Source of the DNA: Nitrospira sp. CG24E
GTDB lineage: Bacteria; Nitrospirota; Nitrospiria; Nitrospirales; Nitrospiraceae
Assembly (NCBI GenBank): GCA_002869895.2
Contig: NEWP02000021.1
Coordinates: 195,522-248,682 of the forward strand
Direction of reading: 5' to 3'
DNA: 53,161 bases
Position 1 is the first letter of the stretch; every line of letters starts with the position of its first letter. Positions 22,056-44,235 of the stretch are shown piece by piece. The notes under the pieces are model-generated. The model saw only the letters and a program-made list of their open reading frames with translations. It had not been told where the DNA came from and did not search any database. The position numbers and the translations under genes were made by a program.

Positions 22056-22103
22056 CGGGGATCGTCCCAGTCACCCCGCCCCATTTTCAGCATTCCACTA
22101 GGC

Positions 22104-22901
22104 TTACAAAAAGTAGAAATGATTCGTAGGCCCGGTTCCGTGACCGATCGCCAGACTGTGACGGATAGCTTCGGTGAGATAGGCCTTGGCCGCTTGCACT
22201 GCGTCGTTCATAGGTTTGCCCAGCGCGAGATGGGCCGCGATAGCCGAAGCGAAGGTGCAGCCGGTGCCATGAGTGTGGGGGGTATCGATGAATTCTCCCT
22301 TGAATACATTGAAGAATCGGCCGTCGTAGAGCAGATCGGTCGCTCGATCTGTCGGTAAATGTCCTCCCTTGATCAAGACATGCTTGCAGCCGAACCCATG
22401 AATGATCTTGGCGGCGCGGCGTGCATCCGCGAGGGTCTTGATTTCAAGGCCGGATAGTTGCTGGGCTTCGTGGATGTTCGGCGTGACGAGCAGAGCCAAA
22501 GGGAAGAGCTGTGTCTTGAGGGCATCAATCGCTTCCGGTTTGAGCAGTGCATGGCCGGTCTTCGAGATCATCACCGGATCCACCACGAGATTCATGACAC
22601 GTTGAGGCTTCAGCAACCTGGCGACCACCTCGACGATCGCCGCAGAGGACAGCATCCCTGTCTTTACCGCTGCGACCTCGAAATCGTCGAATACAGCGTC
22701 GATCTGCGCTGCGACGATCGAGGTCGGCAACTCGAAGACATCGGTGACCTCTTCCGTATTCTGTGCCGTGACGGCAGTAATCACCGACATGGCATACACG
22801 CCATTGGCCGACATGGCCTTGATGTCGGCTTGAATTCCTGCTCCTCCGCCGGAGTCTGATCCGGCAATCGTTAAGACTTGCTTGATGGCTTGTGTGTCCA
22901 T
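22104..22901 (-). CDS. thiD: Hydroxymethylpyrimidine/phosphomethylpyrimidine kinase
   Basis: I start at the ATG 22901 (MDTQAIKQVLTIAGSDSGGG); the upstream 32 codons lie inside the preceding gene. The 265-residue length matches ThiD. Motifs: GSDSGGGAGIQADIK (substrate pocket), KTGMLSS, DPVMISKTGHALL and the anion-hole/catalytic HTHGTGCTFASAIAAHLA with its Asp-like GTGC region. It phosphorylates HMP and HMP-P to HMP-PP for thiamine synthesis in the cytoplasm. It follows the FlgO-like gene by 7 nt with no strong site of its own, so it is probably translated from that mRNA. No other thiamine gene is in the window. Confidence 0.95.
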   Translation of the reverse strand: MDTQAIKQVLTIAGSDSGGGAGIQADIKAMSANGVYAMSVITAVTAQNTEEVTDVFELPTSIVAAQIDAVFDDFEVAAVKTGMLSSAAIVEVVARLLKPQRVMNLVVDPVMISKTGHALLKPEAIDALKTQLFPLALLVTPNIHEAQQLSGLEIKTLADARRAAKIIHGFGCKHVLIKGGHLPTDRATDLLYDGRFFNVFKGEFIDTPHTHGTGCTFASAIAAHLALGKPMNDAVQAAKAYLTEAIRHSLAIGHGTGPTNHFYFL

Positions 22902-22908
22902 GTGCCTA

Positions 22909-23886
22909 TCAATTGGAAGGTAGCGGTATTGCGTCGATTGCTGCTGGAGGAGCTCCAGTTGATTCAGTCTTGAGGCCTTCGATTGTGAAGAGAGCATCGG
23001 GCCTTGGCAATTTTTCGTGGTAACGAAAGGTGAATTGGCTTCCGGTCGTGTCGGCCGGAGCTGAGAACGTCAGCACAGCCCGGCCCTTTCCCCGTCGAGC
23101 GATCTCGATGCCGCGCATGCAGAGGCCTTCGCGGTTATCCTCCACCTCCAGTTTCCACTGCCCACCATGCTCATCTTCGAGCAGAGTGTCGTGCAGCAGG
23201 CACAGCATCTTGACATTGCGCGAGGACTTATTCTCGATCGTGATATCGGCCGTGACCTGTTTGTCCCGCTTGTGCAGGGCGGTCGCGACCAGCTGATAAT
23301 GATCGTTACTGTAGAATCCAAGACCGGGCGGTGGCGCAGGCTTGGCAGAAGTATCCACCTTTACGACAGGCGGCTTGTTTGCCTCCTTGATCAGCTCCGC
23401 GAGAGGGCCGGTTGTAGGAATCGTGCCGCGCGTCGCACCCAGTGATTGCACGGTGCTGGGGCTGAATAGTTTCACCGTCACCCGAAAACCGTCCGGCGAT
23501 TCCAGATATGAACCGGTCGCAAATACATCGGCGCGCACAGCCTTGGCTGCCTGGCCGACTCCTTTAGCCTGAGCCGGCTCGAGTTGCGTGACATGGAACT
23601 TCTTCAACGTCGAGCCCACCAAGGTGCGGTCGACGACTTTGATGTCACCTGCGACCAGAATCTGGGTGCCTAATTCTTCCGCCAAAAATGTCCCTATCGG
23701 TGTGACCTTGCCCTTGGCATCCGTAAAGTCCACCACCGCCAGCCGTCCCCTTCCCGCCTTGACAGCGTCGGCGATCACTCCCTCCGCCAACTGCTTCAAA
23801 CTCTCCTCATATTGCGACGCCGCATAAGCCGGAACCGCCCAGAGAGCAGTGATGACAAGTATGACCGTGATCAGAAGACGATTCAT
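22909..23886 (-). CDS. Secreted FlgO-like domain protein
   Basis: A 325-residue protein with a signal peptide (LLITVILVITALWAVPAYAA). Residues 28-165 match a FlgO-type (CsgG/TolB-N-like) domain: GRLAVVDFTDAKGKVTPIGT, then AEELGTQILVAGDIKVVDRT and VFATGSYLESPDGFRVTVKL. The remainder is a beta-rich domain with NRKS-type strands and two Cys. In flagellated Vibrio FlgO is an outer-membrane assembly factor; no flagellar genes are seen here, so a general envelope role is likelier. It leads an operon with thiD. Confidence 0.75.
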   Translation of the reverse strand: MNRLLITVILVITALWAVPAYAASQYEESLKQLAEGVIADAVKAGRGRLAVVDFTDAKGKVTPIGTFLAEELGTQILVAGDIKVVDRTLVGSTLKKFHVTQLEPAQAKGVGQAAKAVRADVFATGSYLESPDGFRVTVKLFSPSTVQSLGATRGTIPTTGPLAELIKEANKPPVVKVDTSAKPAPPPGLGFYSNDHYQLVATALHKRDKQVTADITIENKSSRNVKMLCLLHDTLLEDEHGGQWKLEVEDNREGLCMRGIEIARRGKGRAVLTFSAPADTTGSQFTFRYHEKLPRPDALFTIEGLKTESTGAPPAAIDAIPLPSN

Positions 23887-23935
23887 GCCGGGGAATTATC
23901 CTTTGGTACAGGAGACAACTTCACCGCTAAGGCAC

Positions 23936-23963
23936 ATTATACTCAGCAAGCATGGCCTGTCCA
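23936..23963 (-). promoter_or_regulatory. Probable sigma70 promoter of the FlgO-like gene and thiD
   Basis: Minus strand: -35 TGGACA (23963-23958), 16-nt spacer, perfect -10 TATAAT (23941-23936). Transcription would begin near 23930, about 44 nt before the ATG. Confidence 0.55.
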
Positions 23964-24140
23964 GCAAGGGAGTGCACTTGGTCGGCATCGCCAGATAGCT
24001 AAGTTGACGCCCAACCGAAAGTGTCTTAGAGTACGAGCCGAGCTTGCAGTGGTGGAAGACCGTGAGGAGGACTGGTCATCATTCGTGTACTCGTGATGGG
24101 TGTTCCAGCATCTCGATTGGTACTCGGAGAAGTCTCTTCT

Positions 24141-24365
24141 TTATCGGGCAGGAGTGGCCATGGTTTCGAAACTGACCAGCGGCATGTCTGTTCCCAAAGG
24201 GACGAAGTTTAACTTTTCGAACCCGATGACCTGGCCCTTGCGATCCTTCATAAGGATGACATCATCGCCGGTTTCTTCGCACAGGTGTTCCTGATCGGGG
24301 TCTCCAAACCACACCGTCAGTGTGTTTCCGACCGGGTCGAAGAACAGCTTTATTTTCGTTTCCAT
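24141..24365 (-). CDS. DUF2283 domain protein (orphan antitoxin-like)
   Basis: I prefer the ATG at 24365 (METKIKLFFDPVGNTLTVWF), since GGGACGGAG lies just upstream; a Met five codons earlier is possible. The 74 residues match DUF2283: strand pairs around NTLTVWFGDPDQ, then ETGDDVILMKDRKGQVIGFE and LNFV. DUF2283 proteins are often antitoxins beside a DUF4258-type toxin, but no such partner is coded upstream or downstream here. It lies next to the disrupted AbiGi-like gene in an accessory-looking stretch. Confidence 0.8.
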   Translation of the reverse strand: METKIKLFFDPVGNTLTVWFGDPDQEHLCEETGDDVILMKDRKGQVIGFEKLNFVPLGTDMPLVSFETMATPAR

Positions 24366-24523
24366 ATCTCCGTCCCTCATGCTCCGGCGCGAATTGCATC
24401 AGGGGAGAATTGAATGACGAATAGATCCCTGAAACTCAGAACTATCAATTGAATTACGGTAGGACGAAGTGCCCAGTCAAGCAACAACCCTACGCAATCT
24501 ACACGGCACCGGGTAGGTAATGG

Positions 24524-25202
24524 TCATAAACGGTCCAGCCAGGCCAAGTCGAAAAGCACCGGACGTCCTGAAGACTGGATTGAGCAAAACCTCGGGAAAT
24601 CCTTCTCAGGACAGAATACAAACAAGACGTCTTGGTAACTAAATGACAAGTCGCCAGGATAACGCCATTCACGCTCGTGCGTCGCATCGAAACTCTCATG
24701 AATGATATTGACGAAGGGTTGGAGCTGATAAGGGATGAAGTTATAAACATGCCGTGAGTTTTCATCGATAGGAGTTTATATTTGTTCCTTGAGCAATGAT
24801 TCTCTAATGTTCAGGCAGGGATTTGCGCCGCGCTCGAACAGCAGGTCTCGATCAAATGCGATCCCGTACTTTGAGCCAAAGTACTTCGCGATGTGCTTTC
24901 AATCCTGACAGGGTACTTTCCGTAAAACAGACTGCTTTCGACTCAATTGAACCGTTAAATTTGATGGTCTTCGGATTGAAGACTTTAGTATTTGCCACTT
25001 TGCTGTACCAGCCTACTGAGGATGACTTCAAACGCGGCCTCGGTTTCGTGGTGGTATCAGCATCGAGAATTGAGCGGAGGATTTTCCTTGCCTCGGCATC
25101 ACGCCGTTTCCCATTCTGGCGTATCAAGTGCGTGAGGAGAAATGAGCAGTCAGAACTTAGACTGGCCAGTTTACGCGCGATCGCTGCGTTCGTTTGAGAC
25201 AT
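24524..25202 (-). pseudogene. Disrupted AbiGi-like abortive-infection protein
   Basis: The frame starts at ATG 25202 and reads to KAVCFTESTLSGLKAH near 24893. There the sense jumps by one frame to IAKYFGSKYGIAFDRDLLFE and RGANPCLNIRESLLKEQI, then an in-frame TAA (24776-24778), then RHVYNFIPYQLQPFVNIIHE, HEREWRYPGDLSFSYQDVLF and a final stop TGA at 24524-24526. Joined, these form one protein of about 225 residues with the order CFTE, KYG-FDRD, GANP, REWR-PGDL that I associate with the AbiGi (phage abortive-infection antitoxin) family. Loss of a CA dinucleotide explains the frameshift. Two independent lesions argue for real decay rather than a sequencing slip. Confidence 0.7.
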
Positions 25203-25642
25203 CAGATCAATCTTCTTCCCAAGGCCACAGATCCATAGGCGCTATAAACTTTTCCCCTCCTGGAACTGAGGCTAAGCGGTTCGGAGGTTGTTATAGTTTC
25301 ATTATTCCCTTCACTCCCTAAGGGCCAGTGTTGTTTCTCTGGCAGGCAGCAAGGCTGGGCCAGACTGGGCGCGTCCAACGAGGGCCTTCTGAGGCCGCGC
25401 GTTGCGCGAGCAATGGAACGGCCCTGCTGCCTGCCCGTTTTTCCCTCTCCTATTCTCATCTCATTCTGGCACGTCGTGACTCGACGGGTGGCGCGAACCT
25501 GGGCGCCCGTCCGCCCGCAGCGGGGTCTCTACACCCTTAGGGGATGGGGCTGGGTTGCCTTCGACTGCGCGCGTCGAACGAGCACAGTTTCATCGTGCGC
25601 GTTCCGCGAGCAAGCCACTTGCCTGGACACCTCGGCTCCCGC
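25203..25642. repeat. Gene-free stretch with a degenerate 200-bp-period direct repeat
   Basis: No gene is supported here. Segment 25361-25445 and segment 25561-25645 align without gaps: GCGCGTCCAACGAG (25369) against GCGCGTCGAACGAG (25569), and GCGCGTTGCGCGAGCAA (25397) against GCGCGTTCCGCGAGCAA (25597), exactly 200 bp apart. The first unit includes the 28-bp repeat shared with 22028-22055. GGCAGGCAGC (25341) also pairs with GCTGCCTGCC (25427-25436), followed by CGTTTTT. Confidence 0.6.
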
Positions 25643-26818
25643 TTAGAATCCCGATTTTTTAATTCGCTCGACTGCCTCTGCCAACCGTTCCTTCGTCGTA
25701 CAGACCGTCATCCGAATATACCCTTCGCCCGGCGCGCCGAATCCGTTGCCCGGTGTCGTCACGATCCCGGCTTTTTCCAGCAAGTGGGCTGTAAATGAAG
25801 CGGAGGTGTAACCCTTCGGCACGGTCACCCAGATGTAGAATGCTGCAGGTGGAAGATCGACCTCGAGTCCGAGGGTTTTCAATCCAGGCACCAACGTGTC
25901 GCGCCGTTCTTGATAGATCTTTCGAATGCCGTCAGTCACGGAATCATCCAGCTCCAGCGCCGTGATTCCGGCAGCCTGCACCGCTTCGAACACGCCTGAG
26001 TCCAGGTTGGACTTCACCTTGCCGAGCCCCGCCAAGACATCCTTGTGACCCACGACGAAGCCGATACGCCAGCCGGTCATGTTGTACGTCTTGGAGAGCG
26101 AATGGAATTCCACGCCGACATCCTTGGCTCCATCGACTTCCATAAAGCTTGTGGGGCGCTTCCCGTCGTAATAAATCTCAGAGTAGGCCGCGTCGTGACA
26201 GACGATGACCTGGTTCTCGTGAGCGAACTCGACGACGCGATTGAAGTAGTCTCTGCTCATGATGACCGACGTCGGATTGTTCGGGGAATTCAGCCACATC
26301 AACTTCGCTTTTTTCGCAATGTCTTTTGGGATCGCGTTCAGGTCCGGCAGAAACCCGTTCTCCTTCGTCAGCGGCATGAGGTGCGACACACCGCCTGAAA
26401 AACTGGTGCCGACCGGATACACAGGATACCCAGGGCTCGGGACGAGCACGATATCGCCAGGGTCGACGAAGGCCAGGTGAATGTGGCCGATCCCTTCTTT
26501 TGACCCGATCAGGGTCAGTACTTCGTTCGCCGGATCGAGCGTGACATTGAATCGGCGCTGGTACCAGTCGGCGACCGCTTTGCGGAAGGCCAGCATGCCT
26601 TCGTAGGAGGGATACTGGTGATGTTTCGGACTCTTGGCGGCCTGAGCCAGACTGTCGATGATCGGCGCCGGGGTGGGCAAATCCGGATCGCCGATGCCGA
26701 GATTGATGATATCCACACCCTTGGCAATCGCAGCCTGTTTCATCTTGTCGATGGCGGCAAAGAGATAGGGAGGGAGAGTCCTAATTCTGGTTGCGACCTC
26801 AATAGGGAAACCGGCCAT
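25643..26818 (-). CDS. dapL: LL-diaminopimelate aminotransferase
   Basis: A 391-residue class I/II PLP aminotransferase with an AAAGGAG site 10 nt before the ATG. Typical features: INLGIGDPDLPTPAPIIDSL, the cofactor-clamping YPSYEGMLAFR, LNSPNNPTSVIMS, DAAYSEIYYDG and the Schiff-base Lys in SLSKTYNMTGWRIGF. The pattern matches the DapL branch used by Nitrospirota and other deep lineages: it converts tetrahydrodipicolinate directly to LL-diaminopimelate, skipping the acylated steps, for lysine and peptidoglycan. Alanine or aspartate aminotransferase activity cannot be excluded by motifs alone. Confidence 0.88.
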   Translation of the reverse strand: MAGFPIEVATRIRTLPPYLFAAIDKMKQAAIAKGVDIINLGIGDPDLPTPAPIIDSLAQAAKSPKHHQYPSYEGMLAFRKAVADWYQRRFNVTLDPANEVLTLIGSKEGIGHIHLAFVDPGDIVLVPSPGYPVYPVGTSFSGGVSHLMPLTKENGFLPDLNAIPKDIAKKAKLMWLNSPNNPTSVIMSRDYFNRVVEFAHENQVIVCHDAAYSEIYYDGKRPTSFMEVDGAKDVGVEFHSLSKTYNMTGWRIGFVVGHKDVLAGLGKVKSNLDSGVFEAVQAAGITALELDDSVTDGIRKIYQERRDTLVPGLKTLGLEVDLPPAAFYIWVTVPKGYTSASFTAHLLEKAGIVTTPGNGFGAPGEGYIRMTVCTTKERLAEAVERIKKSGF

Positions 26819-42112: not shown

Positions 42113-42463
42113 TTAGTACTTTATTGTTGTTTTCTGTGGTCCAATTAAGATGGAAAATTTCGATCCGTCATCTAATCTTCCTTCTCCGGCCCATGATTCT
42201 GCGTTGCCATTAGCAATGAAATTGCCTTTTCGTTTGTCATTGCATTCGATTGTGCCTTCAGTATTAGCGGAGTAAGCCGGAACAAACATTTTCCCCTCGC
42301 AGGAGAGCCCATCAATATTCTTCACGGAAATAACTGCATCGCTGCCTAAGCTTCCACTCGCAGAGCCTCTCAAGATTTCGTTGTCTTGAATCTTTATCGT
42401 TGCAGGAACCGTCGCGCAGGAAGCAAGAAGAAGGCCGATAAGAACGAGGAATGCTTTATTCAT
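42113..42463 (-). CDS. Small lipoprotein of unknown function
   Basis: A 116-residue protein with a type II signal peptide: MNKAFLVLIGLLLASCATV, lipobox LASC, Cys16. The mature part is strand-rich (SVKNIDGLSCEGKMFVPAYS, then NTEGTIECNDKRKGNF) with two further Cys. Likely anchored to the outer membrane. Base use is AT-rich like the HEPN gene. No strong ribosome site. Confidence 0.7.
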   Translation of the reverse strand: MNKAFLVLIGLLLASCATVPATIKIQDNEILRGSASGSLGSDAVISVKNIDGLSCEGKMFVPAYSANTEGTIECNDKRKGNFIANGNAESWAGEGRLDDGSKFSILIGPQKTTIKY

Positions 42464-42508
42464 ATAGGAAGATCAAGGGTCGGGACGTGTAGCGTGCGGG
42501 CAATTGCA

Positions 42509-42922
42509 TCATTGTGTACGAAATCGCTCAGCATACACCGAGCCTCGCGCACGGATGTCATCGAGAATCCCCTTCCGCTCCTCGTTGAGCCTGGCATAAT
42601 CCGAATACGCATACATTTCGAATTCCCGCCGAACTGATTCGTCCTGAGTATCCAGGCATGTTCCCATGGAAAGGACTTGCATCCGCATGACGGTTGACGC
42701 GTTTCGCAGATCTACAAGATCGACTTCGCGGTGCAATTGAACAGCCAACTCTTGGGCCAGCTCAAACCGGCGTAGGTTAGGGATCGGATCGCGCGCGAGC
42801 AGGGCGAGATCTACGTCGCTGTCAAGATGAGCGGTTCCCTTCGCCTGAGAGCCGAAGCGGTACAGTGCGATGAGGCTGGGTATTGACTTTCTAATATGTT
42901 CAATCAGTACCTGATCGTCCAT
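42509..42922 (-). CDS. Minimal nucleotidyltransferase (MntA-like), orphan
   Basis: A 137-residue nucleotidyltransferase. The signature GS(x10)DxD is at G24-S25 and D36-D38 in YRFGSQAKGTAHLDSDVDLA, and a third carboxylate lies in REVDLVDL. Such proteins usually neutralise a HEPN toxin (HepT) by adding AMP or NMP, as in MntA/HepT. No HepT/DUF86 gene adjoins it: a lipoprotein lies downstream and a repeat element upstream. The only HEPN-motif gene near is 40785-41837. Confidence 0.85.
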   Translation of the reverse strand: MDDQVLIEHIRKSIPSLIALYRFGSQAKGTAHLDSDVDLALLARDPIPNLRRFELAQELAVQLHREVDLVDLRNASTVMRMQVLSMGTCLDTQDESVRREFEMYAYSDYARLNEERKGILDDIRARGSVYAERFRTQ

Positions 42923-43234: not shown

Positions 43235-43582
43235 TCACGCAGCCTGGAGCAGAAACGCGACCTTGACGGCTTCGAATGGAAACTCAACTCCACCACCTTT
43301 TGCACGGGTGAGCACGCCGGCTGAGAGCAGGGCCGTGACATCGCCATGCACAGCCTTCACATCTCGGTTCACTCGACGGGCGGCCTCGCGAATAGAAACC
43401 GGCCCGGCTCCGCAAAGGGCTTTGAGTAATTCCCAGCGCTTGGCAGTGAGCACCTGCCACAGCAACTCGGGAGTGGCAAAGCTGATGCGCGCGGACCGTT
43501 GAGCTTTTCGGCTCTTCCACGCGTGTGAAAAGTCGCCCATCGCATCGGACGGCGAACGAACGTCAAGCGTCACGGTTTTCAT
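43235..43582 (-). CDS. TumA-like winged-helix antitoxin/regulator
   Basis: I start at ATG 43582 (MKTVTLDVRSPSDAMGDFSH), which has GAGGTGG upstream; the frame reaches 43618. The 115-residue protein has a winged helix: LLWQVLTAKRWELLKALCGA, then SIREAARRVNRDVKAVHGDV and LLSAGVLTRAKGGGVEFPFE. This is the HVO_A0114-type regulator found as TumA antitoxin. Its start overlaps the end of the toxin gene by 20 nt, so both are coexpressed and the antitoxin probably represses the pair. Confidence 0.82.
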   Translation of the reverse strand: MKTVTLDVRSPSDAMGDFSHAWKSRKAQRSARISFATPELLWQVLTAKRWELLKALCGAGPVSIREAARRVNRDVKAVHGDVTALLSAGVLTRAKGGGVEFPFEAVKVAFLLQAA

Positions 43583-43859
43583 GGTTCCACCTCGCAATGT
43601 CGGCCTGAAAGGCCGCAATCAGGTTATCTGGATCTGAGAACGCATAGGCGCGTTCCCTTCCGCCGTAGTGGCGATGATCGCCCTTGCCGGCCTCGTTGTC
43701 GTAACGAAGCGCGCACGCACCGCGAACGACGTAGGCGAGCCGGTACTTGAACCGATGGGTGGAGCCCGCCAACGGTTTGGGCAGCTGCCAGAGCGCCAAC
43801 TCAGCGAACGCCGTCGTAGAGTAAACGATTCTCGTGCGTATGAGCACGACGGCCTTCAT
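43563..43859 (-). CDS. TumE-like toxin (DUF6516 family)
   Basis: I start at ATG 43859 (MKAVVLIRTRIVYSTTAFAE), the typical TumE start; the frame reaches 43904. The 98-residue protein shows LWQLPKPLAGSTHRFKYRLA, LRYDNEAGKGDHRHYGGRER and the ending FQADIARW. The DNExGKGDHRH signature is characteristic. TumE is the toxin of a type II toxin-antitoxin pair first described on plasmid pCAR1. Order toxin then antitoxin with overlap fits the family. Confidence 0.85.
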   Translation of the reverse strand: MKAVVLIRTRIVYSTTAFAELALWQLPKPLAGSTHRFKYRLAYVVRGACALRYDNEAGKGDHRHYGGRERAYAFSDPDNLIAAFQADIARWNHENRDA

Positions 43860-44235
43860 GTTGGAGACGATACCAACGATCCCGCGTGTTGTCAATGACT
43901 CCAACGAACGATAGTTGCGGGTGCGGAGCCGTCATTTTTACGAAAGGCATCATGGGCGTAGATGGGGCCCAGGTATGAGTAGTGCCTTAAGCCTGGGTCG
44001 CCTTATGGGGTCGTTGCTTGACCTTGCACCTCAGCGGATGAGGAAGAGAAAAGGTGCTGGAGCCGTTTCGGTCTGAACCGCCGGCGCATCTCGCTCGCGA
44101 TGAATGCAACCCTTGTCGCGCGTGACTGAAGCGAGCAGCAGTCAGCTTTCAGCCATCAGCGGCTCCCTCAGTGGAAATTGACGACAGATCCAGGGTAAGG
44201 TGTCACCCAGTTCATTGCCAGACAAGAGATCACAC
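43860..44235. other. Gap without recognised gene
   Basis: I see no supported gene, promoter or repeat in this stretch. A GTG at 44200 could extend the downstream HugZ-like gene by 12 codons; the rest has no clear structure. Confidence 0.4.

Follow-up and report, generated by a model that had tools for sequence, protein, structure and literature searches.

Two described systems come closest to the gene analysed here, namely the AbiG system of lactococci, with its component AbiGi (PF10899), and DarT, which we take to be the same as DUF4433. In the available part of the source (PMC3985639), lactococcal AbiG is a pair of genes, abiGi and abiGii, and neither product was toxic in E. coli when the AbiGi and AbiGii of L. 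lactis were each expressed alone; the same text reports that many abiE genes have been misnamed abiG, a caution for annotation. An enzymatic character of AbiGi is suggested by a 2018 study, the available part of which (PMC6192313) places AbiGi and DUF4433, on the strength of profile comparisons, in a single ADP-ribosyltransferase family with a predicted action against phages. For the DarT of Thermus, the available part of another report (PMC9967889) gives R51, Y71, M78, H119 and E160 as key residues, with H13 and T15 located at the NAD+ ribose and with R51, Y71 and E160 constituting the catalytic Arg, aromatic residue and Glu.

Here we analyse a broken AbiGi-like gene in a stretch of 53,161 nucleotides (hereinafter, the window) from the genome of Nitrospira sp. 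CG24E. It appears probable that this gene, a solo member of the AbiGi family, was acquired horizontally and has recently been inactivated; its intact form would, on this view, be a DarT-like anti-phage ADP-ribosyltransferase.

A gene interrupted twice

The gene runs on the minus strand from 25202 to 24524 and consists of two pieces that, when joined, yield a read-through of about 225 residues, interrupted twice. The features of the locus are the following.

22909..23886, minus strand: FlgO-like gene, which together with the gene at 22104-22997 anchors the syntenic side in other genomes of the genus
24141..24380, minus strand: intact DUF2283 gene (79 aa), downstream, with 87-92% DNA identity in four genomes of the genus
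24524..24901, minus strand: C-terminal piece, in another frame that is open from about 24901, with the KYG..FDRD, GANP and EREWR blocks; its TGA ends at 24524
24776..24778, minus strand: in-frame TAA within the C-terminal piece; a glutamine codon in the closest relative (L001)
24852..25202, minus strand: N-terminal piece; ATG at 25202, 116 codons open, stop ending at 24852; matches query residues 1-108 of the read-through
24880..24895, minus strand: frameshift zone; in the DNA alignment, one base too many compared with four relatives
25341..25437, strand not assigned: long imperfect palindrome upstream of the gene, a copy of a genus-wide interspersed repeat (context only)
25539..25612, strand not assigned: second, related repeat copy (context only)
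25643..26818, minus strand: class I/II aminotransferase gene, on the other side, beyond the repeats

The two pieces (query residues 1-108 and 101-225) correspond to consecutive parts of one intact protein of 224 aa encoded in a related genome, and because they match adjoining parts of a single protein, a split gene is indicated far beyond chance. Homology holds in frame to about residue 106 of the N-terminal piece, the final residues being out of frame; the intact counterpart is found in L001 and L005. An earlier note, drawn up from the letters of the window, had described an otherwise continuous protein with CFTE, KYG-FDRD, GANP and REWR blocks, broken by a frameshift near 24893 and by an in-frame TAA. 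All these blocks are indeed present in the window copy and are kept in its relatives, and both lesions are found where they were placed, the shift within the zone delimited by alignment with four relatives and the TAA on the minus strand at the position of the L001 glutamine codon. The loss of a CA dinucleotide, to which the shift had been attributed, has to be replaced by a gain: the window copy carries one extra base relative to each of L001, L002, L003 and L004 in the DNA alignment, the resulting reading frame being identical. Thus, compared with its intact orthologue L001, the gene bears two disabling lesions, a frameshift and a stop codon, as expected of a pseudogene. Since these lesions leave the product without its GANP and EREWR blocks, no active protein can be expected from the gene in this genome.

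An intact copy, for which the earlier note had proposed to search other strains, exists in the same genus: contig 85 of genome G023 (L001) contains an uninterrupted 224-aa match with 84-85% identity to the read-through. Distant intact copies are encoded in G025 (L003 and L006, 58-59% identity) and in Reinekea forsetii (L002, 58%), and a further intact copy in G232 (L041 and L045); a relative in a delta-proteobacterial metagenome-assembled genome (L004, 4995-5665) is split by an independent one-base shift in another place. The gene is rare, with matches in 3 of the 100 relatives searched and, at the scale of the phylum, in 4 of 395 genomes, the own genome being counted in both cases.

Could a functional protein nevertheless be produced? 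The overlap between the frames of the two pieces might hint at programmed frameshifting that, combined with read-through of the stop, would yield the full-length product. However, each of the four relatives is one base shorter here, three of them are uninterrupted throughout, and the separate TAA would still block the product, so that, given this alignment, we reject programmed frameshifting as extremely improbable. A different question is whether the organism itself carries an intact gene, with one or both lesions being assembly or consensus errors of a draft genome in 99 contigs. Comparison of the read-through with the intact sister L001 yields 30 synonymous and 35 non-synonymous changes, with a dN/dS of 0.30 across 223 comparable codons (positions with gaps or stops were omitted), and at this ratio the sequence of the window copy still looks selected. 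The residues differ at 32 codons, counting the TAA; 12 of these changes were assigned to the L001 branch and 6 to the window branch, with 14 ambiguous. Having decayed no faster than its intact sister, the window copy must have been broken recently, unless the break is an assembly error, and the one-base shift of L004, at a different position in a metagenome-assembled genome, is also compatible with the latter. On the other side of the ledger, two types of lesion occur in one gene, and a substitution that creates a TAA is unusual as a consensus error; furthermore, the rest of the window consists mostly of long intact reading frames, both neighbours of the gene included, which argues against a generally poor assembly. 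On balance, we consider errors of assembly or consensus unlikely and favour a recent inactivation.

Family membership, genomic setting and the question of a partner

The assignment to AbiGi, which the earlier note had suggested to verify by a PF10899 search with the joined protein, is borne out, the read-through scoring 25.9 bits (15.4 bits without the N-terminal piece) against a curated cut-off of 22.4 bits. The intact relatives score 26.9 bits (L003, above the cut-off), 21.4 bits (L001) and 17.5 bits (L002, both below), so the subfamily sits on the border of what the Pfam model captures; AbiGi is the sole family reported by Pfam for the intact protein. In a profile-profile comparison (hhalign), three members of the subfamily match nine further AbiGi proteins, drawn from viral contigs, plasmids and G236, at 99.6% and E 1.4e-24 over 194 columns. 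The AbiGi model of PADLOC is matched weakly (18.8 bits), an NCBIfam search of the gene returned no match, and a six-frame search with PF10899 was silent for both the own genome and G023. Among the residues invariant in nine aligned AbiGi proteins are D18, S20, H25, R28, C91-F92-x-E94, Y111-G112, P127 and E175-R-E-W-R179 (L001 numbering). Judging by these sequence comparisons, the kinship with AbiGi is secure, whereas the exact border of this diverse family is not. A second, typical AbiGi gene is present in G025 (L040, 1756-2580; 52.3 bits), with no AbiGii seen adjoining it.

The FlgO-like side of the locus is syntenic with G023 (93% over 22084-23969). In that genome, the intact AbiGi-like gene is located about 4 kb further from the FlgO-like side, and its other neighbour differs, a TenA-like gene (named by reading the sequence) taking the place of the aminotransferase; the site is partly syntenic. 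The two adjacent genes met opposite fates: the window retains DUF2283 but has a broken AbiGi, whereas G023 has an intact AbiGi and, of DUF2283, a remnant of only 54 bases (L001, 6147-6200). The interspersed repeat that is represented by two copies upstream of the gene has matches in all 32 genomes of the genus that were searched; the own genome has 37 exact occurrences of its core pattern, compared with none of a reversed control pattern. Elsewhere in the window there are two toxin-antitoxin-like modules, one with a Polbeta nucleotidyltransferase beside a 116-aa gene (42113-42922) and another with a TumE toxin and an HVO_A0114-type gene (43235-43904).

At 47.6%, the broken gene is poorer in G+C than the window (56.2%), and the L003 gene shows a similar deficit (43.2% against 56.0%); such low values fit horizontal acquisition. 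In Reinekea, the AbiGi-like gene stands alone between two attC-like sites of the AACAA...CGTTA form (L002, 3197-3294 and 3980-4027) within a cassette array, and in this relative the gene has the layout of an integron gene cassette. The 5.9-kb contig contains 16 matches to the attC pattern, some of them overlapping, compared with a mean of 0.77 and a maximum of 4 in shuffled sequence; an integrase was not seen on it. The cassettes of this contig (L002, 1-5900) include, along with the AbiGi-like gene, those for a GNAT acetyltransferase and an EF-Tu domain-3-like protein. Other AbiGi relatives are found on plasmids (six records) and on viral contigs, where they adjoin the gene for the terminase large subunit (L051), a portal gene (L054) or genes read by eye as lysis genes (L056), or precede a HEPN/RES fusion gene by about 230 bases (L055, 2938-5153). 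For the close subfamily, 64 candidate stretches in viral contigs yielded 0 confirmed relatives and phage records none; neither L040 nor L046, when used as a query against viral contigs, retrieved any. Indirectly, the viral-contig, plasmid and integron setting of AbiGi relatives places them in the company of defence cargo.

So does the gene belong to a two-gene system? In AbiG, abiGi is followed by abiGii; the gene in the window is instead flanked by the DUF2283 gene downstream and the aminotransferase gene upstream. No AbiGii was seen in the ORF lists next to the window copy or next to L001-L004, L040, L045, L046 and L051-L056 (part of the neighbour genes of the relatives were also scanned with Pfam), and none was seen by annotation in 4 of the 6 plasmid records (L047-L050). 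The AbiEii/AbiGii profile PF08843 is absent from the own genome, and PF16873 is silent there, a weak answer given that the controls were silent too. With no AbiGii beside any copy examined, we conclude that this is a solo gene and not a wrecked two-gene AbiG system. The Pfam title of PF10899, which calls the family an antitoxin, and the abiGi/abiGii pair of lactococci, as it is presented in the available part of PMC3985639, could be taken to mean that the gene is the antitoxin of a toxin-antitoxin system that has lost its AbiGii; this reading was already disfavoured by the same observations on AbiGii and PF08843, and we deem it very improbable. Hence the 'lost defence system' of the earlier note survives in part: the assembly does contain both lesions, but what they struck is a one-gene element.

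Predicted fold and the case for an enzyme

For fold comparison, we used an AlphaFold2 model of the intact sister built with nine sequences (pLDDT 77.8, pTM 0.74; three sequences gave a pLDDT of 35.8). When this model was compared with 452 chains using VIA-align, DarT came out on top (7omw, Z 8.2, 137 aligned residues, rmsd 4.0; further DarT chains 7yk3, Z 7.8, and 8baq, Z 7.5), followed by KptA (Z 5.5) and, at Z < 4, by NarE, OspC3, AvrPphF ORF2 and PARP1/2, with the proviso, issued by the program itself, that a Z of about 8 may reflect a common arrangement or chance. PARP entries, besides, are numerous in the PDB. By our own reading, 31 of the 32 matches listed have the ADP-ribosyltransferase fold, the remaining one being a protein of unknown function. 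Foldseek retrieved nothing for the sister model at E <= 0.001 from the PDB and BFVD, and an hhalign comparison of 13 AbiGi with 10 DarT proteins gave a probability of 0.9%, the only match being a non-significant 20-column 'NL..IL' stretch; there is thus no significant sequence-profile match to DarT (PF14487) in this comparison. PDB sequence searches with three profiles yielded nothing significant; the best hits, IcmP (DotM) and 5x1u (E 0.38-1.6), cover a short stretch and were dismissed as chance. Our literature search found no publication naming AbiGi and DarT together. The own genome encodes an uninterrupted DarT gene on contig 56 (L061, 111512-112129; 209 bits on PF14487).

The borderline Z, the lack of a significant Foldseek or profile match and the reported non-toxicity of lactococcal AbiGi on its own (available part of PMC3985639) would all suit a regulator that binds DNA or protein and has no enzyme activity, in which case the resemblance to ADP-ribosyltransferases would be a chance arrangement. 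The lack of toxicity, however, is also compatible with a need for a phage signal. Moreover, nearly all the VIA-align matches listed belong to one superfamily, the same one that emerged from an independent published profile analysis (available part of PMC6192313), and the strictly conserved His and the ExE-type residues are typical of enzymes. A regulator of this kind thus seems a rather doubtful proposition, and, taken together, these lines make an ADP-ribosyltransferase more likely than the antitoxin of the Pfam title. It is plausible, from the pattern of conservation, that H25, C91-F-x-E94 and E175-R-E177-W-R of AbiGi form a putative NAD+ site.

If the fold is taken as a guide, the intact protein would belong with DarT (DUF4433) among the ADP-ribosyltransferases instead of being an antitoxin. 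Upon phage infection, it might bind NAD+ via the conserved N-terminal His, and the glutamates of the EREWR motif might serve to put ADP-ribose on nucleic acid or protein, a modification that would block either phage replication or the infected cell.

Meaning of the locus and likeness to known systems

Family and genomic context both point to a possible anti-phage role, and in place of a lost defence system, we propose to speak of a recently broken solo AbiGi-family gene, probably one for an anti-phage ADP-ribosyltransferase. As a pseudogene, it exemplifies ordinary turnover of defence genes, and its intact relatives are of some interest. These relatives also strengthen the case that the label 'AbiGi antitoxin' misleads, for members of the family are often found without a partner and are predicted to fold like an ADP-ribosylating enzyme. 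More tentatively, and with greater doubt than confidence on our part, one may imagine the solo AbiGi subfamily as partnerless, one-gene DarT-like ADP-ribosyltransferase defences that are carried by integrons, phages and plasmids, remain silent until infection and are quickly gained and broken in Nitrospira-like bacteria.

How, then, does this gene compare with the known systems? A Paenibacillus plasmid protein annotated as DUF2971 was found by tblastn with the intact sister (E 4e-6), but it partly lacks the conserved N-terminal pattern and, at 13.2 bits, falls below the AbiGi cut-off. The ADP-ribosyltransferase-like anti-phage protein of a Serratia island is a different protein in a different host, likened here by description and not by sequence; in the available part of that work (PMC6192313), its authors group AbiGi with DUF4433 and predict anti-phage action. 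With lactococcal AbiG, there are differences, in that no AbiGii partner was seen, the N-terminal third is divergent and the present copy is broken, yet the central and C-terminal parts match the PF10899 profile and the H, CF.E, YG, P and EREWR signatures are shared. From DarT of the DarTG system, our gene is set apart by the lack of a significant sequence-profile match, and no DarG macrodomain or NADAR gene was recognised beside the AbiGi-like gene, but DarT (PF14487) is the best structural match of the sister model, and the two share an H-x-T-like strand that is followed by the 'NL..IL' helix.
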